A DNA stretch of 64,000 bases from Acanthamoeba sp. SK_2022b (taxonomy: Eukaryota > Discosea > Longamoebia > Acanthamoebidae), in contig JANDJZ010000013.1 in NCBI GenBank assembly GCA_027943245.1, positions 186,001 through 250,000 of the forward strand, written 5' to 3'. The notes under the pieces were generated by a model. It was not told the DNA's origin, did not search any database, and was given only the letters and a program-made list of their open reading frames with translations. Positions within the stretch are counted from its first letter, which is position 1. Each line of letters begins with the position of its first letter. Position numbers and translations under genes: made by a program. Positions 7,940 through 25,885 of this stretch are shown here, piece by piece.

Positions 7940-9857
7940 ATGAGCGAGAGCGTAGTGGAGGCCAAGTGGTCATGCCCACGCTGCACGTTCTTAAATCCTG
8001 ATTACAGCCCCACCTGCGAAATGTGCGACATCACGAGGACAGATGCCGACCCCACCATCCAGATCTACACGAACGATGCACCTGCGCACGATGCAGGGGC
8101 AGGGTCGGGACAGCAAGGAGAAGATCAGCAACACGGCAGCACAGGTGGTGTGTACGCTGCGACAGATTTCGCTGTTGACCTCGAAGGCGCGCAGCCGGTG
8201 AGCTCCCCCCCTCTCTTCCAATGCCGCTCATGCAAGCGTCTGTTGCGCCGCACGAAAGGCTCCGAGCATGGCCCACCTGCTCACATTTGACTCCCAACGC
8301 TTGTAGAACGACGACCTCTTCACCGACCTACCCCCTCTTATTGAACCCAGCGTCGTGGAGGCGCCACATCAAGACGGCTACGTGCGCTTGCAGGACGAGC
8401 CAAGGGGCACATCACCCTCGGCATCTGCCGACGCCACGCTCACTGCCAAGGAGGAGCTGGCCCTGCAGAGCTACTGCGAGTCGATAGAGTTCCCCCCGCC
8501 TCCCCAGAACGAAGAGCAGGTAACGAGGCCGGTCCCACGCGTGCGCACACGTGCTCTGCCGCATGATGTACGATGGCGCGCTGATGCTGTACGGCGTCTC
8601 CTGCAGGGCCTGGAGACTCTGGCGGAGCACCTGCGGTCGGCCTACGGGGAGAAATCGTACAGTGATCTGCTGCGGGAGTATCCCAAGGGCGCCGAACGGC
8701 TCTACCATCGCTACTTTGCCGTGGTGTGCCCTCAGAAGAACCTGTCGTTCGGCTCGGCCATCAAGGCCTGGGAGGCGCTCAGCTTCGAGACGGTGTTCAA
8801 ATCGTACGGCGAGTGGAAGGAGTTCCTGCTCAAGGACAAGAAGCTGAGGGGCAGTATCAGCAGAGTACACGACCCCTCTCGCTCTTCTTGTTTCACTGCG
8901 CGATCGATTGGCTCATCGCCATGGGTGCGTTGACGCACCTTGTGTTGTCCCTCGTCTCCCTTCCTCCTTCCCTTGCCTCAGGACGGGTGGCAGATGCTGT
9001 GGGCCTTCGCTGAGAGCGAGGACCGTCTGCTGAATGACTACTCGACCGACGAAGCCTGGCCGAGTATTATCGACTCGTTCGTCGAGTGGAAGTACGAAAA
9101 GGAGGGACGCACGTTCAAGTCCGAGGTTTGTGCTTTCCCCCTCCACCCCAACTGAACGTTCGGCTAACGTCGCCACCCGTCAGTCGACTTTCATGACCGA
9201 CGCCTCGGCCTACGACCACCGATGGCTCAACAACGGCTCAGCTAACGCGACCTACTCCCCGTCGGTCTTTTTGTCGTCGGTCCCCGCCAACACGTCCTCG
9301 TCGGCGTCGTCCAACATGTTCTCCACCAGCTTCTCGTGGAACTCTGATTACCGCGGCCTCTACAACCAGGGGGCCACGTGCTACATGAACAGTCTTCTGC
9401 AGACCCTGTTCATGACGCCCGAGTTTCGGCGCAGCCTCTACCTGTGGAAGGGCGGCAAGGGCCTCTCAAAGGAGGAGGAGGAGGACAGCATCCCGCTGCA
9501 GCTGCAGCGGCTGTTCGCGCGGCTTCAGTTCGTCGAGGGCTCCTCGGCCATCTCGACGCAGGCGCTTACCAAGAGCTTCGGCTGGGACAGCGGCCAGTCG
9601 TTCGTCCAGCAGGACGCGCAGGAGCTCTGCCGAGTGCTGTTCGACGTCATCGAGGAACACTTTGCCGGCACGTCCGAAGGTATCCCCTGCCTCGCCTCCG
9701 CTGTCCTCCACGCAATCTTGATTCCTCGCAGCAGCTGACGGACTACTTGTTGCTCTCCCTCCCCCTTTCCTCTCGCACAGAGCATGTCATTCAGGAGTTG
9801 TACCAGGGGCGAGTGAAGGACTACGTGCAATGTACAGTGTGTGGCTACGAGGTACCC

Positions 9858-9918
<61 letters not shown>

Positions 9919-12900
9919 CTGTCCACCGCGCGTCGTTCGCCCCGCTGATCGGCCCGCGTGTCGTTGCTGTGGCCGTCGAGGCACCACCTAGTCCTCGCGT
10001 CCAGACAAATTTCTCGACATCTCGCTCGACATTCATCAGGTGAGCACGCTCACCGAGGCGCTCGACAAGTTCGTGACACCCGAGATCCTCTCCGGCTCCT
10101 CCCGCTGGCGATGCTCCAAGTGCGACGCACTGGTACGCTGGGTCGGGATCAGGTGATCGCCTTGGCTGCGCGTGCGCCTGATGAAGGGCATATGGCGCGT
10201 CTTATCACAGGTCGACGCGCGCAAGGGCCTCAAGATCGTCGAGCTGCCCTACATCCTCATGGTGCAGCTCAAACGCTTTGACTACGACTACCAACTCGAC
10301 CACCGCATCAAGCTCAACCACTCGGTCGAGTTCCCGCACCGCATCGGCCTGGACAAGTATGTGGACGACTCCTTCGAGCCCGAGGCCATCACCCACCCCG
10401 ACACCCCGGCCCGAGGTACGCGCCGTGCCGCCCTGTCAGGACATGCCACACCGGTCTCACCGCAATGGCCGCTCGGCCCCCGCCCCCCGCCACCCAGGCA
10501 AAGCAGATTCGAGTCGCAGCGGCGATGGCGCCAACGCGGCGGCGGTGGCCAAGAAGTCGATCCAGGAGCGGAGGCAGGTGCTGCAGGATAGCGTGGCCAA
10601 GCTGCAGGAGGCGCTGCAGGTGGGACCACCCGAGCTGTTGGCGGACCACTATCGACGCGAGATCGAGCGCCACGGGCAGACGCTGAGAGAGCTGGACGAG
10701 CAGGAGAGCAAGGAGCGGGAGGACGCCGCCCAGGCCGAGGAGGAGAGCGCTAAGGGCAAGGAGGTGGTCAAGGACACCGACGGTGACTCCCCGTATGCCG
10801 ACAACTTCAAGAAGAGGAAGGGCGACACCGAGAGGGCCGAGGCCGACGAGAAAAAGGGCCGAGCGAGCATGGACGACGGGTCGGACAACTCCACCGAGAC
10901 GCAGCAGCATATCTACGAGCTCTATTCGGTCCTGGTCCACAGCGGCTCGGCGACGGGCGGCCACTACTACGCCTACATCAAGTCCTTCGAAAAGAACAAG
11001 TGGTGCGCGCCGCCCTCGGTGTACTTGAATGGAGGATGGCTCGCTGGTCGTTGACAGGGCTGGGCGCGATAGGTACGAGTTCAACGACAGCTACGTGACC
11101 GAGGTGTCGGAGGACAAGGTCAAGCAGGCCTACGGTTCGTTTTGTGCTCCCTCCCTCCTCTCTTCATGTCTTGACTGCTGGGTGGGACTCCGTGCAGGCT
11201 CGGACGACGGTCATAAGTCGCTGATGGGCACCTCATGGGGCTGCTCCGCCTACATGCTCTGCTATAGGTGCTCTTCTCACCACCCAAGCGAGGCCGTCTT
11301 GGGTTTCCCCTCACCTTGGTCGTTGGCTCATGGATCCCCACAGGCGCGTCGATCCAGACCGCAACATCAGCTCGGTGCTGTCGGAGGAGGTCGACGAGGA
11401 GCTGCGAAACATCAAGGAAGGTAAACACCGACTCCCCTTCTCTCGTCCACCGCCACCAGAGGGGGAGGACCAGAGCAGACCAGGCGACCTGACACCCCTT
11501 TGTTTGTGTTAGCCGAGGCGTCGTGGTCGTTCAGCATCGAGCAGAAGGACAAGAGGAAATGGCGCCGGGACAGCAGCGACGAAGAGGCCGACAACGAACG
11601 AGGCACGCGACATCCCCGCGTGCCAATTCTCCCGATAACCGCTGACGATCGCCGTTTGTGTGCATGCGTGTGTGTTGGTGTAGGAAATACGAGTGACGAC
11701 ATGGAGACGGGGAATGAGGACTGGGAAACCGAGTCGCAGATGGGCCTCGACGACGAATACGACACGACCACCACGACCACCAGCAGCGCCACGGGCGTTG
11801 AAGTCATCGTGGCCACGAAAGAGGTAATAACCGAAGAGGAGGACCTGGAGCTGCTCATCTTCTTCAAGCACTCGGCCGACACGGCGCCGCCCGACGACGG
11901 CGATGGCAACGACAAGCTCCTGGAGAGGAAGGCCGTACGGATCTCGTCCAACGCCACCCTCAGCCACCTCTTGAAGAAGGCCAAGACCGCGTTTGGCCTC
12001 ACCACGACCGACGAGTCGGCGCTGGAGCTGTCGGACTACCACCCTGCTACACAGCAGGTCCGTGGCGTGGCGTGGCGTGACATGCGTTTGCAGTGCAAAG
12101 CCGGCGCTGATGCAGAGAATTGGTTTGGGGGGGCTCTCCCTAGGTGGGACACCCGTACCGCAGCTGGACCACGCTTACAAACCGCCTTCGCGATGAGTAC
12201 ATCGACGATGGCTCGGCGTTCTTGTTGGAGGTCCCCCCCACCATCCTCTCCGTTTGCTGTTCCCTCTCCCGCCCACGACTCACGGCGACCCCGTCCTCCC
12301 TCGTGTCCCCTCCAGGTCAAATCCGCCGGCACCGCCAACATGTTTTGTTGGGACTCTAACTTTGACGCGCAGCTGGCCATGGTACGCCACTCGGTGGAGG
12401 GAAAGTGGGGTGGTCTCCTCGTTCGCTTAAGCTTCAACCGTTCTGTTCTGTTCTGTTCTGTTCTGTTCTGTTCTGTTCTGTTCTGTTCTGTTCTGTTCTG
12501 TTCTGTTCTGTTGTATGCTGCTGATGATGATCTATCCGCGCGATTAGATGCTGCTGGTGTTCGAGGTGCTGCCGATCTCCAACCCAGACTCCACCACGGA
12601 CGGTATGGGTCTTCTTTCTTCGATGAACCTAACGGCGCAGTCTGGGAGCTTGTGTGGTTGACTCGGGGGGGGGTCCCGTGCCCGGCTGCAGGGGCGTCTG
12701 TGGCCGACTGCGAGTTTAGTTCGCCAAAGAAGGTGTTTGTGAAGAAGAAGGACTCCCTTCTCGACCTCAAGAAGGCCATCCACAGGGAGCTCGGCGCCCA
12801 CCTGCCGCCCGACAAGCAGCGAGTCATTCAGGCCGCCGGCACCTGGACCACCGTGCGCCACCCCGACCACACCACGACCCTCCACTTCTCACGCGTGTGC

Positions 12901-13244
12901 ATCACGTTGTACAGAAGGACCTATGCGAGCACTCCGATTCCACGCTGCTCTCGACGCTGTTCCTGTTCGACAAGGACAAGATCTACGTCGAGTACTGCGA
13001 CGACCTGGCTGCGCCCTCCCCAGCGCTCAAGAAGCTGCGCGGCTCCTTCTCCTTCCCCACCTCGTTCGCTTCATCTTCGACGTCAAGCTCTACGTGGACC
13101 GAGTCGTCATCATCGTCATCATCGTGGATCTCGTCAACGTCGTGGCGACCCAAGGAGAAAGGCATCCAGATCCGACGGCGGGCGGACAGACCACCAACGC
13201 AGCCCGCCTCCGATCCACTCGACCCTCCTCCCCCGCTGCCCTGA
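7940..13244 (+). CDS. USP47-like deubiquitinase fused to RanBP2 Zn finger and DCN1-like domain
   Basis: Multi-exon gene with the start at 7940. The N-terminus is a RanBP2-type finger ([20 protein letters not shown]). A DCUN1/PONY-like domain follows at about 8608-9122 ([22 protein letters not shown], then [20 protein letters not shown] and [14 protein letters not shown]). The USP catalytic domain has the Cys box [20 protein letters not shown] (Cys codon 9379-9381), [23 protein letters not shown] and the His box [16 protein letters not shown] (His codon 10962-10964). Ubiquitin-like segments follow, and a Ser-rich tail ends at 13244. The order of USP blocks and the downstream region match USP47 closely. 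It should cleave ubiquitin (family knowledge). The neddylation-domain fusion is unusual. Introns contain (CA)n and (TTCTG)n arrays. Exon edges beyond 11,500 are approximate. Confidence 0.85.
9861..9916. repeat. (CA)n microsatellite in USP intron
   Basis: 56 bp of pure CA begins about 10 nt after the intron donor (GAG|GTACCC), in the sense CA orientation. Confidence 0.95.
12441..12510 (+). repeat. (TTCTG)14 pentanucleotide repeat in intron
   Basis: Fourteen perfect copies of TTCTG (70 bp) lie in an intron between the exons encoding NFDAQLAM and [10 protein letters not shown] of the USP gene. Confidence 0.95.
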
Positions 13245-13349
13245 GCCTGCTTGGCGCGTCCCGCGAGGGCTCCGGCTCTTGTTTGTTATTTACTTGAAAA
13301 CGTTTCAACGCAAAAATGGGGCCTTGCCGCGTCCTGCATCTCTCTCACG

Positions 13350-15598
13350 TCAGCCCTCGGGATCGAGGACCTTGTCCTCGCGGATGGGGTAGGGCAGCTT
13401 GCCGTTGGCCTTCAGTCGCTGGAGGGCCTCCATGCGCTTGCGGTTGATGGCGCCGCGGTACTTGGCCTCCCACGCGCTCTCCTCCTCCACGAAGTACTGG
13501 TCGTAGGGCCGCGGGCTCACGGCGTGGGCGGCGCTCCGGGCCACCAGTCGCCCGTCTGCGCCGATGAACTGGCCGTGGTTGGCCACCCGCTGGTCTCGCA
13601 GCCACAGGCCCGCATACTTGGTGCCGTCCTCCCACGTCATCACTCCTACGCCCGACACACGAGGATTAAGACGACACATTAGTGCGCAGCCCCACTACTC
13701 CGCTGCGTAGGGCGAGCAGACGCGTGATCGGCGAGTACCCTGCCCGTGTCGATAGCCGTCTTCCCACTGGCCGGTGTAGGCACAGCCGTCGTTGCCAAAG
13801 TAGTAGGTGCCCATCCCCTGCTTCTTGTTGTAGTCCCACTGCCCCTCGTAGCGCCGTCCGTCAAGCCATGTGTACACTCCGTAGCCATGGTGGCACCCGT
13901 TATTCCACTCGCCCTCATATCTGCTGCCTGTTTGTTTTGGTTTTTTTTATTTTTTTTTATTTTTTTTTATTTTTTTGTTTTGTTTTTTTTTTGTTTTGTT
14001 TGTTTGTTTGTTTTTTTAGTCCATGCAAAGGAGAGGTCAATCAACAGACCAATCAGCAGAGGTGGCCGATGGGGTCGTACCGTTGGGCCAGCTGTACGTG
14101 CCCTTGCCCGTTCGCTTGCCGGCGATCCAGTCGCCCTCGAACACGTCTCCGTCGGGCCACGTGCGCACGCCGTAGCCGTCGCGGTGGCCTCCTCGCCAGA
14201 ACCCTTCGTACTTGTTGCCGTCAGCCCTGTGCGCAATACCCGCCCCCAACAAAGAGTGAGCCAGGACGACGTCGGGGAGAGGCGAGGCGCGCTGATTCGT
14301 ACCAGTGGTAGATGCCGTAGCCCTCGTGGAGGCCTTCTCGCCACTGCCCCTCGTAGTAGGCGCCGTCTGCGATGGGACACGCAGGCAAAGGAGGGGCGTG
14401 AGCACGAATAGAATGAGGGGAAGCGTGCAAGGCGGATTGAGGGAGAGGTGAGGTACCCGGCCACTTGTAGACGCCAAAGTGCATCTTGCCGTTCTTCCAC
14501 TCACCCTCATAGAATTCTGTCGCAGATGGCGACGCAGATTGGCATATGAGCGCAGCGGGGAGACGATGGCACAACAACTACTGGGCGCGTTGCGAAGAAG
14601 GGAGAGCATCGGGGGGGGGGGTTACCGTTCTCGCCCCAGACTTTGGTGCCGAGGCCCTCGGGCTTGCCGTCCTTCCACTCGCCCTCGTAGTACGAGCCGC
14701 CGCTCCACTTGTACCGCCCGACCCCGGTCACCTTGTCCGTGTGCGGCTGCTGCAGGATCGTCTGTCGCACGACAATAAACAATAGCAAAAACAAAAAACA
14801 AAAAACAAAACAAAAATCACAAACGGCAACGGTCAGTCGATGATCGAGAGACCGAGGAGGTCGAGGTGGGCACGGGTACGGTCTTGCATCGGTAGACCCA
14901 CTTCCAGTCGCGGGCACTGGGCTTACGCAGGTCGTAGGTCTGCACCTTGGCCTTCATCTTGCGCCTCCTCTCCGCCGCCGACACGCTCCCTCGGCGCGCG
15001 CCCGCATTGGAGGAGGAAGAAGAAGAAGATGCCCCGATGCCCTTCCCCTCGCACCCACACCCACCAAAGTAGTCGTCGTCGTCGTCCTCGTCGATGTCGT
15101 CACACTCATCGTGCTCCCCTCCGCTCCTTTCCTTTTCCTCGTGCCCTTCCTCGTCCGTCATCAAGGCGTTGCCTGCACCGCCGCCGCCGTCACCGGTGGC
15201 CGTGTCCGAGTGAGGATAGGGCGCGTCGCGGTCGGGCACAACGGCGCCGACAGCGGCGTCGGGCTTGTCCTCCATCTCCATGCGCTCGCCCTCCTGCGCT
15301 TCGTCCGTGCGCACGTGCTTGCAGCTGCCGTCGTTGTAGAGGCCGCCGTTGTGGGGGCCGTGCTCGCCGCCGGAGCCGCCGGTGATGCTGCTGAGCCGCC
15401 GCTTGAGCTGGGCCTCGCGTCGCTCCGTGGCCTGCCTGCGCCACCGCTCGGCCCGCTCCCGCTTGACCACGCGCTTGGTCATCAGGAACCACAGGTAGTC
15501 GTCCTTGGTCAGCCGCAGCAGCCGCTTGCACGCCCGCCCGCTCTCCTCCACCTCCCGCCCGTCCAGGTGCGACAGCACTCCTGCATGCGCGTGCGTGC

Positions 15599-15631
<33 letters not shown>

Positions 15632-16118
15632 AAAGAATGAACGCGGCGTAGGTGGCGAGGCGACAGAGAAGGATCGTACGTATGAGAATTTCGTCGGGAA
15701 AGGAGAGGAGGTGGAGACCTTCCGAAGAGGAGGAGGTCGAGGTAGTAGATGTGCATATGGATGTAGACGAGGAAGAAGACGTGGAGGGAGGAGCTGCTCG
15801 ACGCCAAAGAGGCGACGCATCGTAGCCCTCTTTCTGCTCGGAGCAGTCTTCGTCGTTCAATAGCAGAGATGGAGGGAGATGGGGTGGAGGAGAAGCGGGG
15901 GGCGCAAGAGCCGAGAGAAGTCGCGGGGAAAGCGGGCATCGATCTCGAAACGGCGAAATGCCAGTCCCTGATGCCGTTGTTGATTCAAAAGAGGGTGAGG
16001 GCGAACACGCGCGCCATGTACCCGGGGACGGGCTCGGGCTGGCAGCCGTGGGCAGGATTTTCGGTTCTTCTCGATGGACCGTCACGGAAGGGTCGAAGGA
16101 AGCCATATCCTCTTCCAT
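13350..16118 (-). CDS. F-box / MORN-repeat protein
   Basis: The chosen start is the ATG at 16118 (MEEDMASF). The N-terminal part is Ser/Pro-rich, followed by an F-box-like segment (LLSFPDEILIRTI, then after an intron VLSHLDGREVEESGRACKRL) and a basic, acidic-patched linker. The C-terminal half has at least seven MORN repeats spread over small exons: YEGEWKDGKPEGLG, YEGEWKNGKMHFGVY, YEGQWREGLHEGYGIY, YEGFWRGGHRDGYGV, FEGDWIAGKRTGKGTY, YEGQWDYNKKQGMGTY and YTGQWEDGYRHGQG. MORN repeats bind lipids or proteins, and an F-box would link the protein to an SCF ubiquitin ligase (family knowledge). An upstream in-frame ATG (16301) exists but adds no domain. The stop is at 13350. Confidence 0.8.
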
Positions 16119-18313: not shown

Positions 18314-21300
18314 TCAGAACATAGCGTTCAATTTGCTGATGCCTTCCTGCGCTTGCGACTTGACTGTGTCGTCCTCCTCCGAAGAGGAGCTTGAGTCGCT
18401 GAGGGTGGAGGCGGCCTTGTGCTTCTCGAGAAGGTCGGCCACCTCGGCGGGGAGGGCGGTGGTCTGCTTCCGCCGGTCGGCGTCTAGCTGGGCGCGCTCC
18501 TCGACCTCCTCGCTTTCCTCATCCGCCGGACCGCTGCTGGCGCCCTCCACGATCGCGCGCTGTCGTTCCTTCCTATCGGCTTCCAACCGTTGTGCTGTCT
18601 TCCCGGACGCCTCCCGCAGCGCCTGAATCCACACGTTCCTCTCTTCCTCGTCCTTGGCCTGAAACTCGAACACTCGCATGATGGTCTTGATCTTGAACAC
18701 TGTGGGCGAGCCGCCGTTCTCGTCGTCGGTGACGGAGACGACCTGCTCCATCGACACCGATCCCTGCGGCAGCCGGTTCTCCTGTGCGGGTCGAGTGCCA
18801 CGCACGCAAGGGATTGTGCGGGGAGGGGGTGGTCGTGAGTTTCCACAGGGTCGCTCGGAAAGGTGCATGTGTGTGATAGAAGAGGGGGGAGCGGTGCCTT
18901 GGAGCGGTAGTAGTAGAGCTTGATGATGTCACGCTGGCGTTTCTTGAGCACGCAGTACCGCTTCTGCCACGACTTGTGGAATGCGGGGCTTCGCTTGGAG
19001 ATCACCCCCTGGAGAGCGGTTCGGCGTTCAGCGCGCGCTCTCACCGAAGATTGCCACCCCATCACTTTCCTCCCGCCAACGGCCAAGTGTCGTACCTCGA
19101 TGATGGGGGCTTCCACCTGAAAGGTGAGTCTGATGGAACCGAGCTTGATGCTGTCGCCGACGGCGAGTGGAGCCTTGCCGGTGACCACTTTTTCGTTCAC
19201 CCTCGTCCCGTGCGTCGAGTTCAGGTCCCTGAGTAGTAGTTTCCAAGGTGAGACCCGCCCGCGCATCAGGGAAGTGCGGTCGAGCAACATACCGAATGAA
19301 CGCCGTTCCGTTCTTCAGAGTGATAGTGGCATGCTTGCGGGATACGCTTGCCGCCTTCAACACAATCTGCACGTCGCCTCGACCTGCCGAGCAAAACCAT
19401 GTTGTCGTGGATCAGCGTCGGGGAAGGGGGTTTGGGGTGGATGATGTCCGTGATGCAGCGGTTGACCCACCCAGAGTGTTGTTGCCCTCGGCCAGCTTGT
19501 AGGTTCGCTTGGCCGACACGAGCGATGCGCTGCCGAAGCGGCTGAACTTGACCCCGCCCTCCTCGCCTCCCCGCTTGTTGGCGGGCTCCTCGCGCTTCGC
19601 CGGGGCGAGCGAGGAGACGGTCTGTGACTCATCCTTCGCGGACTTGGTCTGAGCTCTCGCGTCGTCATCGTTGCCGCTGCCACTGCCGCCGGAGCTGACC
19701 TTCGAGCCCAGCGGCACGTCGCCGGAGGATTTGGACAGCGGCTTGGCGGCCGCTTTCTTCAGGTCCCCGCTCGTGCTCTTGGTCAGCGGCTTCTTGGCGT
19801 CCTCGTCGTCCGAACCTCCATCCTCGTACTCGCTGGCCTCCTCTTCCTTACCCTCCTCTTCAGCTTCATCCTCTTCTTCCTCCTCCTCCTCTTCCTCTTC
19901 GCTTTCTTCATTCTCCTTCTTCTCCTTCTCCTTCTTCGCGTTCTCGTCTTTCTTTGCATCCGCGCTGTCGCTCCTGGTCTTGCTCGTGGTGACCAAAGTT
20001 TCGACGTCGGACGGCTCGACAGTGGGGGGACCGGAGTTTGTGCTCGTCGTGGTGGTGCTCGTCGTGGCGGTGCTGGTGGAAGAGGTGGAGGTCTGCTCTC
20101 GAGAGGTCATGAGCGGACGCTTGGCGGAGGGTTGGGACTTGAGAGGGGCGAGCCGGCGATCGAGGAGGGACTTGCGGTGGTCGGCCTTGACCTTTTCCTT
20201 GGGAGGAGCCGCGCGAAGCCAGCTCGAGCTGATCGTGTCGGCCTTCTGTCTTCCGCCTCTTGGCTCCTCGCTTTCCCTCACTTCCTTTTCGCTTTCGCTC
20301 TTCTGACCATTGTCTTCGTTCTTTGGTTTCATCGCGATCGCTGACTTACCGGGACCGAATGTGATGCTCCTTGGGCTGTGCACGGGCTTGTTCTTCGGCT
20401 TTTCGCCGTTCTCATCCGTGGCCTCGCTCTTGTCGCCGTCGTCAAGGTCCTCTTCCATCGGGACCGGGACCGGCATTGGCACGGGAACCGGGACAGGCAC
20501 GGCCATGATCGGGGCGGGCATCGCCACGGCCTTCACCGAAATGGAACGCGGCAGCGGGAGCGTGCCCAGCTGAACCGGCCCGGTAGTCGCTTGGTCGGGA
20601 TGGGGATGGGACAGCGGCTGAGCTGCCTGCGAGGTGGCGTTGGGCACCGGCGCAGGAGATGCCTCGGTTGAGTTGCCTGCAGTAGTCGTAGTCGAGCTTG
20701 AAGGCATCGGTTGGAAATTGGCCGCCGTTGGCAGGGCACCCGAGGAGGCGGCCATCGATGGCGTGCGCGAACCGGAGGCCAGCGAAGCTCCCTGAGCTTG
20801 ATCGACGGCCGTGGTACTCACCTCCTTGTCGCTGCCACTCAGCTGCGTGGGAGCCGTGGAAGCGGTGGCCTTCGGCGTCGTTTGTTCGGTGTCGCTGTTG
20901 GTCGCCCGAGCGCCGGCGCACTTACCCTCGCCCATGATCTCACGCTGGCGCTGCGCCTTCTTCTCCTCGACGGCCCGGCGGATGCGCTCCATTTCCTTGT
21001 CCATCTGCGGGTTCCTGGACTTGCGCGTGGGCGTGGTCTCCTTCCTCGTGCTCTCTCGTGGGAGCCGCGTCGTTCGCCCCGGTGAGCCCACCGCGACGGC
21101 CGACAGGGTCTCCTCCTTCGTTGGTTCGCTCTTCTTCTTCTCTTCACTCGCAGGCGGGCCGCCCTCTTCGAGACTCTGGCTCCGGGGCTCACTGGCGAGA
21201 CCTGGCGCGGAAATGACCTTTTCCTTCTCCTTCTTGCCACTTACGAACAGGTGTATGAGCTTGTCCACTTCCACGTCGTCATCCTTTGTTTCGATCTTGG

Positions 21301-21643
21301 CCACTTTTTCGGGCTCGTTTTCGCTCTTTTTTAAGTCCGAAGAAAGAGGGAGAGGCGCGTCGGCCCTCTTGTTCTGTTCCTCGTCCGCAAGGTACTTGGC
21401 GAGGAGTGGATGGTTCTGCATCACAGGGTCCTTGAGCATAGGCCCCAGGTCGCCCATGATTTGAGCCAACATCTGCGTTGCGGATCTCGACGATTTCACC
21501 ATCGATGCTTCGAGATCTTCGTCGTCCTTGGCGCCTCCTTCGCCCTGTTTGAGCTCTTCGTAGATCTGTCGCATCTCGCGCTCCATCGATTCCATGTCCA
21601 TCGAGACGTTCAGCACGGACGGCGCGCGCTTCTGGTCGCCCAT
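18314..21643 (-). CDS. FHA and PH domain protein with long disordered N-terminus
   Basis: The start is the ATG at 21643 (MGDQKRAPSVLN). The first exon is a very long, charged and Ser/Thr/Pro-rich region of more than 700 residues. It includes a VPVPMPVP repeat and an unbroken acidic tract (about 19,860-19,910). The FHA domain follows across three exons: GNNTLG, RGDVQIVLKAASVSRKHATI and DLNSTHGTRVNEK, so the SRKH and STHGT phosphothreonine-binding motifs are intact. A PH domain comes next (GVISKRSPAFHKSWQKRYCVL to EERNVWIQALREA). The tail is acidic. FHA binds pThr peptides and PH binds phosphoinositides or proteins (family knowledge), so the protein may couple phospho-signals to membranes. No enzymatic domain is visible. 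Confidence 0.82.
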
Positions 21644-21928
21644 CTTTGTGAATTGCAATCGAACAAGGAGCTCTCTCGGTGTTAACAAGCACGGCCCAAA
21701 AATTGGCTCGCCGTCATTTGCCGCCGGCCTATGAAATTTCGAACGTTCACATCCCTCCCTCTCAAAGAAAGCATTCCGAGTTGCTTGCTTTTCTGTTATC
21801 GATCGGCCACAAGCCACACGAGGTTGATTCGAAGATGGCCGCGGGCTAAGCAGACACACAACGTGGCCATGACGCGTGGAGCTCACCCGCCTTATTGCGG
21901 AGAGGCGTGAGCAGCACTGCTGGCAATA

Positions 21929-22577
21929 CTACCACTTCATCTGGGGATTCGCCTTGAAGGCCAGGAACTGCGCCGTGTTGTAGCAGGAAATCTCGGTCTC
22001 GTGCTCTGCGAGGCGGCAGTTCACACTGACGGTCAGCCTGTTCATCACACGCTAGAACAGCAGCGCGACGCACCCACTCCAAGCTCGGCCAGCGATTTGT
22101 TCATGTCAAAAGGTTCCTGCTCCTCGTTGATGAAGTAGATGTTGTTGGGCTGTATTGTGGAATTAGGAAGAATTAGAAGGTTGCGTCCTGTCTGTATGAC
22201 TAACGTGGCGCACTTTTGCCCCTTGGGCCTTTGTCATTATGCGCAGGGTATCTGCAGGGGCAGGGGGATTGATTGATTAGCTAAACACCTAAAGGTGTTT
22301 CAGTTCGTCAAAGAATTGGACGACGAGAAGCACCCATAGTAGCATTCCGGTACGGCGCGTATGCTGATTGGCTTTGAATTGGTGGGCCAGAGTTAAGGGC
22401 CAGAGACCAGAATGTGCGAATGCGGAGGGGGGGGGGGATTGCGGGGAGGATATTAGCAATAATCTGGGCCATGAATTCGGAAGCCTTCATGCTCAGATCT
22501 ACATCTTTGATCACCATGGTTTTCATGGTGCGATATTCAAAGGACTTGACGAGGTAAATCGTGAGCACGACCGACAT
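21929..22577 (-). CDS. C2orf76 / UPF0538-family protein
   Basis: A small conserved eukaryotic protein of unknown function. The start is the ATG at 22577 (LTIYLVKSFEYRTMK). Later exons encode DTLRIMTKAQGAKV, then NNIYFINEEQEPFDMNKSLAELG, and a terminal ETEISCYNTAQFLAFKANP with MKW before the stop at 21929. The order and spacing match human C2orf76 (RSFEHRN, PPPFRNYKYDTLKI, ETEIAFF, YKANP). The join after the first exon (around 22350-22450, a poly-C stretch with PPPLR) could not be resolved exactly. The fold is probably ubiquitin-like. Confidence 0.75.
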
Positions 22578-22927
22578 TATATTATAATGAACGCGATAAT
22601 CAGCAAAATCGCGATTTGTGTGTTGGTTTCTCTCTGTTTTCCTGCCTTTTCTTTTTTGCGAGCACTCCGATTGGTTGTCGAGGGCTGCCAGTGATTGGCC
22701 GCCAGTCGTGGTGGGAAATTACCGGGCGTGGAGCTTAGGGAAACAGGCCGTACCTGGACTTTTCTCGACTTGCCGCCACGTCGCCCAGTCCCAGTCCTCC
22801 TCTGTTCCGTACTGCAGCGAAGCCTCTGATCGTCTGCATCACCATCGCCTTCTTTTTTGAGATTAGGTTGTTAGCATCGATCTAGTTTCATTCCTTCACC
22901 TCCCCCTACCCCTTCCATCGTCGTTGA
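22578..22927. promoter_or_regulatory. Divergent promoter region, C2orf76 / CDK genes
   Basis: 350 bp between two divergent start codons. No defined promoter motif was recognised. Confidence 0.35.
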
Positions 22928-25885
22928 ATGCTCCCTGTTCAACAACAAGTTGAAAATGGGCAACTTCAACTACCTCCTGGAGGGGATACGGCGGGGATGA
23001 CTTGGAAGAAGCCTGCGGTGGGCCTTCAACAACGGCTTACCTTCGATGATTTCCACATTATCGAGCAGGTTGGCGAAGGAACCTATGGGTGCGTTTCCCT
23101 GCTTCACTTCTCTCTATCTCTCTTCGTACCACGGTAATGTTGGTGTTGCATGTCATCACGCCGCTGCTTTCCGTTGTATTCGACGTCGGAGTCGATAGAG
23201 AGCTCTTGGAATAAACCCACTTCGAATCCCCGCACGACAACACCATCATCATCATCATCATCACCCATTCTACGCAGCTCCTTCATGTCGCGACTTTCCA
23301 CTCAACCCTTTTCCTATCTCTCTCGCGTTTCTCTTGCAGGCGTGTATTCAAGGCGCGAAACAAACACACTAATAAGCTTACCGCGCTCAAAGTCGTTTTC
23401 CCGACTGAAGATGACGAGGGGGTATACATTCACTCATTCGTTGCCATCTTATTTCATCTCGAGACTGCGTCAGCATCCCATCGTTGCCACAGTGTCTCAT
23501 CATTCCATGTGCACATGTCGTGTTGGCTTGTGCGCAGCTTCCGTTCACGGCTGTTCGGGAGATCAAGTACCTGCAGATGCTGCATGAGCACTCCAACGTC
23601 ATCAAGCTTGAGGGAACCTTCTTTACCAAGGGTATGTCCACACCGCCGTATGCGTGAACTCAACATGTTCCGACATCATCATCGAGGCACAATCGCAACC
23701 TCAGAGAGCTCTCTCTGATCTGAGTCCCTCACCATCACCATCCTCAACCGATTTCCTCTTGTTGTGTGCGCTTCTCAGACGGCGAGCTGGTGTTGGCCTT
23801 TGAATACATGGAAAACGATCTGTCGGGGTTGCTCTCTCTGAAGAACCTCCAGTTCACCCCGGCGCAGACCAAGTGTCTCTTCAAGCAGGTGCTCCACGGC
23901 CTCCATCAGTGCCACAGTGCCGGTATCATGCACAGAGACATCAAAGGTAATGGGCGGCACTGGCTCGAGAGCCTCTCTTGCAAAGGAGGGTGAGCCTTAC
24001 GGTTTAGCTAAACCAAGTGCACTGTCGCATGCCTATCGCTGTCGCTCCGTGTTCTTCCGCGCGCGCTACCTTTTTGCTCGCACAGCGGCCAATCTGTTGC
24101 TCAACAATGGCCAGCTGAAGCTGGCCGACTTTGGCCTAGCCTCCAACTATGCCCGGCGGCGCACGTTCTCAACCAACGTGGTGACGCTCTGGTATCGCGC
24201 CCCCGAGCTGCTGCTCGGCGTTAACACATACGGGCCCAAGGTCGACATCTGGAGCGCAGGGTACGTGTCATGATCCACTTTCCCAGTCACCACCCACTCG
24301 CGCCGCCTCTTTGCTCTCCAGAGAGTGAGGCGCCTTTTGTTTCGGGGCTGACATATAAGCGTTTCCCATGTGTGCGTGTAGGTGTTTGTTCATCGAACTC
24401 CTGACGCGCCAGTCGCCGTTCCCGGGTCGTGAAGAAAAGCACCAGCTAGAGCTCATCGTGCGAACGTGCGGCACGCCCGACGAAAGGAACTGGCCGGGCG
24501 TCACCAAGCTCGACGGCTACAAGCTGCTCCAGGGACTCACGGGACACAAGAACCGACTGTCGGAGGTCTTTGGCAAGTTTGATCCGAGGGCGCTCGACCT
24601 CCTGTCCAAGATGCTTGCTCTGGACCCGACGCAGCGCCCGACCGCTTCTGAGGCCCTCGACCACGACTACTTTTGGTCGGACCCTTTGCCCTGCAAAGCC
24701 AGCGAGTACGTTCTGCCCTCTGCAACCTCAATGGCCACACGTCCCGTTCTCGAGTTGAGCCTCAACTCAGCCTAACAATGGCTCCTCCCCGACAGGTTGC
24801 CTCACTACCCTGCGATGCACGAGTACGAGGCGAAGAAGACGCGACAGAGCGAGCGCCAGCCCAAGCGACAAAAAGTCACGGGCTACGCGCCGACCGTTCC
24901 AGTCGCCCCTCTTCGAGCGCAGCCCTACCCGCCGCATCACCATCACCACCAGCAGCAGCAGGGCTATCCCGTGCCACAGCACTCCCAGTCTCGCAGCGAC
25001 TACCCGCCCCCGTCCCACTATGCCCACCCTGCGCCGTACCCGCCTAAGTCGAGCCAGTACGCGCCGGCCAGGCAGAATCCTCCCCTGGGTCCGCACTGGG
25101 GACCCGCGGCTCATGGAACGCAGCCCCAGGCCGGCCGGCATCCTGCCGCTGGGGGCGATGGCCTCTTGCCGACGCCTCCCGTCCTTCCTCCTCATTCGAG
25201 CCGGCCGACGGGCTACGCGGGAGGGTATCCCAATGGGGCGCACCCTCCCTCCTCGAGCGCGATGCCTCACTACGACGCCGCGCGAAGCAGTGGCAGCCGG
25301 CAGCCGAGCGGGCACGCCCACGCTGGAATGATGGGCGCACGGCCTATCCAGCACCACGGTCGTCCGTCTGCTTCGTCGTCGACCCTGCAGCGAAACGGAC
25401 AACACCCCCCAGCGACCGGCCATTCGGCGGTGTCCTCCACGAGCGTGCCGCCGCACCGGAGCACTAACGGCATGCACCCTCAGCCGCACATGCCGCCCGG
25501 CAGCACAGCCCACCACGGTGGCAGCGGCCACTACCCTGCGGGGCGGAGCGCCGAGTACCACCATGCCCCGCGGGAGCACCGACCGCCATCGTCGTCGGCC
25601 GTGGCGCCGTCTTCGGTCGGCAGCGGCACCGGCGGCGGACATCTTATGGACGGGCCGCGACACGACATGCCTCCCATGGCGTCGTACAACCGCCCGCCAG
25701 CCGGAGCGCATCGACCGCACCACCTCCATCACCCCCATGGCCACCCGATCGCGGACGGCCACGCCTCGGCGTCGGCCTACAACGTGCACCGTAGCCATGC
25801 GCGGGCGACGCTGAGCAGCGTCGAGCGGCTGGAGGTGGGCGTCGACACCACCGGCAAGCGTAAGAGGGAAGCCGCGCCTCTCTGA
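22928..25885 (+). CDS. CDK9/CDK12-class cyclin-dependent kinase
   Basis: Multi-exon kinase with the start at 22928. Visible motifs: Gly loop VGEGTYG; catalytic Lys in [10 protein letters not shown]-helix PFTAVRE, equivalent to [32 protein letters not shown]; and the C-lobe through [24 protein letters not shown]. The YFWSDPLPC block and the following [17 protein letters not shown] are characteristic of the CDK9/CDK12/plant CDKC group, which phosphorylates the RNA polymerase II tail (family knowledge). After the kinase there is a roughly 350-residue His/Pro/Ser/Gly-rich low-complexity tail in a single exon (24797-25885). A basic KRKRE sequence near the C-terminus may be a nuclear signal. A cyclin partner is expected but is not in this window. 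Confidence 0.87.

Follow-up and report, generated by a model that had tools for sequence, protein, structure and literature searches.

An Acanthamoeba gene joining an NZF-type finger, a Dcn1-type C-lobe and a USP47-like catalytic domain: a putative cullin-docking deubiquitinase

Deubiquitinases (DUBs) work alongside cullin-RING ligases (CRLs). A locus of Acanthamoeba sp. SK_2022b raises the question of whether both activities may meet in one polypeptide, and whether such a protein would promote cullin neddylation, as a preliminary description of this DNA had proposed, or would bring a deubiquitinase to the ligase. We analyzed a window of 64,000 nucleotides (contig JANDJZ010000013.1, positions 186,001 to 250,000); the gene sits on the contig designated C205 of the 45-Mb assembly G000. 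An NZF-like zinc finger, a Dcn1/DCUN1 C-lobe (PF03556), and a USP47-like catalytic domain were encoded in this order by a single gene. We consider it moderately probable that the product is a USP47-family deubiquitinase docking on CRLs via a reduced Dcn1 domain, and not a neddylation co-E3.

The gene occupied positions 7940–13244 of the plus strand and consisted of 19 exons encoding 1220 amino acids, to which the residue numbers below refer. Splice sites were picked by eye, giving a continuous frame, and the spliced model was collinear with two related proteins, P0001 and P0002, the latter being a deposited "USP47" of Balamuthia mandrillaris. The start at 7940 given in the preliminary description was retained, while its end at 9738 was not, since the gene continues to 13244; the "junction exons" listed there (8850–8982 and 9126–9184) turned out to be introns, at 8865–8981 and 9126–9183. 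The first part of the PONY C-lobe was encoded by exon 3 (aa 158–243; 8607–8864) and the rest of it by exon 4 (aa 244–291; 8982–9125). Exon 5 (aa 292–456; 9184–9679) contained a linker and the USP Cys box with the catalytic C357. The remaining USP domain, including the CxxC pairs, the His box (H751), and D769, was encoded by exons 6–12 (9781–11420, up to aa 833), and the C-terminal region by exons 13–19 (aa 834–1220; 11513–13244), all on the plus strand. Introns were short, and 17 of the 18 were of the GT-AG type. Two junctions were less sure: aa 86/87, which lies in a gapped linker, and the one after position 11602, where the donor is GC and read-through is open. The stretch 11603–11683 is a probable GC-AG intron, which, being open in read-through, may be retained in some transcripts. 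On the minus strand, a neighboring gene with MORN-like repeats was recognized by eye at 13330–16000 from translations only.

Whether the Dcn1-like and USP parts belong to one protein depends on the 58-nt intron (9126–9183, plus strand) that separates the cullin-binding exons from the USP exons. It contained two in-frame stops and must therefore be spliced out for a fusion protein to be formed. These stops, an internal methionine (M295) near the start of exon 5, and the derivation of the window model from genomic DNA by eye would agree with an artefact, in which two adjacent genes (a short NZF-Dcn1-like one and a USP47) were wrongly joined by our exon chain. Such an artefact is, however, hardly credible, because P0001 crosses this junction as a single ORF on a 3990-nt contig and the three-part order recurs in the deposited protein of Balamuthia. 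P0001 showed this order in one ORF of 1243 aa; its longest contig, of 3990 nt and intronless, fits an assembled or spliced transcript and not genomic DNA. It was 74% identical overall to the window product, and the alignment ran unbroken through every exon junction lying from the Dcn1-like segment to the USP domain, the position of intron 9126–9183 among them, and through 17 of the 18 junctions in all; the one not covered was the first junction (aa 86/87), a gapped linker in this alignment. The earlier claim of one continuous gene running from the finger through the Dcn1-type segment to the USP Cys box was thus confirmed by the spliced frame, the P0001 ORF, and P0002.

The profile search proposed earlier for the DCUN1-type segment was run on the first 833 aa of the product and supported the assignment. 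PF03556 (Cullin_binding) matched aa 184–279 with 65.7 bits (cut-off 27.9, E = 6.6e-18) over profile positions 17–118 of 118. A phmmer comparison of the first 324 residues with solved structures in the PDB gave DCN1-like protein 3 (1.6e-10) and, at 5.2e-10, a Galdieria DCUN1 protein as best matches; DCN1-like protein 1 was also matched (1.3e-6). When the module, human DCNL1, and two Dcn1-type proteins encoded in the same genome were aligned by MAFFT, D244, A268, and D274 of exon 4 corresponded to D211, A235, and D241 of DCNL1, the DAD patch, which is needed there for co-E3 activity according to PMC6393609. Mutants in this patch lose cullin binding, as stated in PMC4886823 and PMC6393609, and, via cullins, the binding of DCNL to CAND1 (PMC4886823); the DAD patch is therefore the right one to conserve for docking. 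It was D-A-D in P0001 as well and D-S-D in Balamuthia. By sequence, the segment is a C-lobe of the Dcn1/DCUN1 (PONY) type with its DAD patch. The predicted structure of the module had a mean pLDDT of 57.2 and gave no usable match.

The view of this segment as a neddylation-promoting module was not borne out, since only its C-lobe was recognizable. An N-lobe profile of four sequences, searched without filters at an E threshold of 1000, matched none of the three fusion proteins; a C-lobe profile found all three (52–57 bits). In leave-one-out controls, a profile built from three of the N-lobes recovered the fourth in all four cases (43–77 bits), and C-lobe controls scored 59–119 bits. Two N-lobe controls belonged to proteins with similarly diverged C-lobes (59 and 62 bits), so divergence alone poorly explains the missing match. 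C90 and P97 were matched where MAFFT aligned a short upstream stretch to a portion of the N-lobe, and the fusion proteins may possess a strongly reduced form of this lobe.

The groove accommodating the UBC12 peptide or inhibitors comprises 16 residues named in PMC5658359, and 11 of them belong to the N-lobe. At seven of the 16 positions, every one of the three fusion proteins had a gap, and at three (C90, P97, L184) the window residue was identical. The UBA-Dcn1 of the same genome had nine identical residues and no gaps, with A180 and Y181 of the C-lobe changed. The DCN-like protein of contig C278 shared just two of the 16 residues with DCNL1 and yet had no gaps; the argument consequently rests on the gaps, identity alone discriminating poorly. 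Judged from these comparisons, a PONY N-lobe with a groove for the UBC12 N-terminus was not recognizable in the fusion proteins. Membership in the Dcn1 C-lobe family and the retained patch required for DCNL1 co-E3 activity (PMC6393609) would speak for a bifunctional enzyme, promoting cullin neddylation and deubiquitylating substrates. This appears improbable, given the undetectable N-lobe and the gapped groove (PMC5658359): as the Dcn1 lobe forming most of that groove is undetectable, there is little reason to expect co-E3 activity.

The zinc finger (aa 9–33; 7964–8038, plus strand), of the pattern W-x-C-x2-C-T-F...C-E-M-C, had been named RanBP2. Pfam RanBP scored 9.3 bits, under its cut-off of 27, while a finger as such was upheld by phmmer matches to solved NZF-type structures, namely 2crc (E = 7.9e-6), presumably HOIL-1L, and NPL4 1nj3 (E = 2.2e-5). 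By these matches and its W-x-C-x2-C...C-x2-C arrangement it is an NZF-type finger. The finger of P0002 reached 17.6 bits in Pfam (cut-off 27) and none was listed by Pfam for P0001; it was visible by alignment in both, Balamuthia having CTL...CEVC where the window has CTF...CEMC.

The catalytic domain matched PF00443 (UCH) at aa 348–807 with 217.9 bits (cut-off 23.9, E = 2.3e-64), with C357, H751, and D769 in place. Catalytic residues were found in all three fusion proteins, and by sequence the product belongs to the USP (UCH, PF00443) deubiquitinases. In a search with residues 1–900 of P0001, 7983 proteins were scored and 2746 had E ≤ 1e-5. Among the best 120 of these 2746, most of the specifically named ones were USP47, which agrees with the USP47-like protease described earlier; these matches, Balamuthia apart, had 43–53% identity over about 26–34% of the 900-residue query. 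The search depends on shared 5-residue words, and the two modules were not linked directly by it. According to precomputed domains, PF03556 was present in two of the best 120 of 2746 matches, P0001 and P0002, and absent from the other 118. The statement that no USP47 homologue carries this module has to be amended, as P0002 of Balamuthia contains PF03556; for the combination of an NZF finger and Dcn1 C-lobe with a USP domain, searches aimed at it in an open-access library gave no description. The C-terminal 387 aa of the window product (aa 834–1220) gave a sub-threshold ubiquitin match of 13.1 bits (cut-off 25.4) and possibly form one degenerate ubiquitin-like fold; P0001 and P0002 yielded neither a ubiquitin-like domain nor PF19718 at E ≤ 1. 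Residues 809–1220 were 69% identical to P0001.

In a tree of 18 rows, which contained neither a USP7 or USP40 outgroup nor any animal USP47, the USP domains of the window protein, P0001, and P0002 formed one clade (100/99); at the sequence level these domains share a common ancestry. PF03556 scored 65.7, 66.5, and 69.3 bits in the three proteins, respectively. Between the window and P0001, identity was 85% in the NZF, 45% in the linker, 85% in the C-lobe, 58% in the second linker, and 94% and 91% in the USP core; between the window and Balamuthia, it was 38% in the C-lobe and 65% and 60% in the USP core. The segment could also serve as a helical scaffold or regulatory spacer that has lost cullin binding and, for instance, regulates the USP in cis or binds another partner. 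The serine at the DAD alanine of Balamuthia and the diverged domain (38%) suit this explanation, as does the status of cullin binding as a prediction from sequence. Nevertheless, the W-P-x-I-I-D core and both DAD aspartates were identical in all three fusion proteins, and the domain was more conserved than the linkers between the window and P0001; loss of cullin binding therefore seems rather unlikely to us.

Five PF03556 matches were found in the assembly, at four loci including the fusion gene (C205): the others were the UBA-Dcn1 at C851, the DCN-like gene at C278, and a SPRY-DCN gene at C535. The C278 protein (L001) had both lobes, no UBA was found in it, and most of its UBC12-groove residues were changed. 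On the minus strand of C535 (L002), SPRY (69.8 bits) preceded a DCN domain (PF03556, 85.7 bits) with junctions joined by eye; this apparent SPRY-PONY fusion seems to retain both lobes and served as an N-lobe control. A second USP47-like gene was located at C764 (L010, about 20800–25400), with about 63 residues from the first in-frame ATG to the USP domain, more upstream exons being possible; PF03556 was not found on this contig in a genome scan scoring exons singly. The insert in its USP domain contained an NZF-like finger, which scored 26.8 bits against a cut-off of 27. Because the assembly also encodes a UBA-Dcn1 and this other USP47-like protein, the fusion gene looks like an addition that substitutes for neither parent. 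Cullin_Nedd8 matches occurred on five contigs, four of which had one above the cut-off.

For the fusion protein as a CRL-docking deubiquitinase, we infer cullin binding, catalysis, substrates, and the direction of effect from sequence. Docking at the Dcn1 site on the C-terminal domain of cullins would fall to the C-lobe and its DAD patch. Ubiquitin carried by substrates or by ligase subunits would be held by the NZF finger and then cleaved off by the USP domain, whose catalytic residues are present. The likely result would be that CRL receptors and adaptors are protected against self-ubiquitylation, that CRL substrates are trimmed, or both. The protein should not promote neddylation and, occupying the Dcn1 site, may slow it or compete with Dcn1. 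In favor of docking we counted the C-lobe conservation relative to the flanking linkers (85% against 45% and 58%, window and P0001) and the Cullin_Nedd8 matches and UBA-Dcn1 of the same assembly; against it we counted the Balamuthia serine, its C-lobe identity of 38% and altered finger, and the uninformative predicted structure. Folding of an isolated C-lobe, as well as its binding to cullins, is putative. The earlier proposal that cullin activation is linked to deubiquitination thus survives in part: a link between cullin ligases and deubiquitination is better supported, the cullin-contact patch being kept, and activation is not. We offer more tentatively the idea of a one-chain DUB that replaces Dcn1 on the cullin, blocks neddylation, and strips ubiquitin from the ligase or substrate, i.e., a built-in CRL off-switch not recruited by the COP9 signalosome. 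The docking model predicts DAD-dependent cullin binding without co-E3 activity; if true, a Dcn1 C-lobe can act alone as a cullin-binding module.

Compared with Dcn1 and DCNL1-5 (DCUN1D), the fusion protein is alike in its C-lobe with a DAD patch and in its N-terminal module of a ubiquitin-binding type, which is an NZF in the fusion and a UBA in Dcn1/DCNL1. It differs in the fused protease and in that neither the N-lobe of the PONY domain nor the greater part of the UBC12 groove is detectable. Its finger resembles NZF fingers (NPL4 and 2crc; TAB2 type) in the CTF...CEMC match to NPL4 and 2crc, but precedes a cullin-binding segment, and its ubiquitin binding is putative. With USP47 (USP7/USP40/USP47 group) it shares a catalytic domain with Cys, His, and Asp, whereas PF19718, carried by many of the listed relatives, was not detected at E ≤ 1 in P0001, P0002, or the window C-terminus. 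The nearest functional precedents appear to be human USP47, which binds the SCF receptor beta-TrCP (PMC8484750), and USP15/Ubp12 bound to the COP9 signalosome (CSN), where USP15 protects CRL components (PMC7407660). As in the CSN with USP15/Ubp12/UspA, a USP would be brought to CRLs and their components protected; the physical link there is a third, separate complex that recruits the USP, whereas in the fusion the docking element would share the chain. That nature has fused a cullin-binding lobe to a USP suggests that deubiquitylation is useful at the C-terminal domain of cullins.
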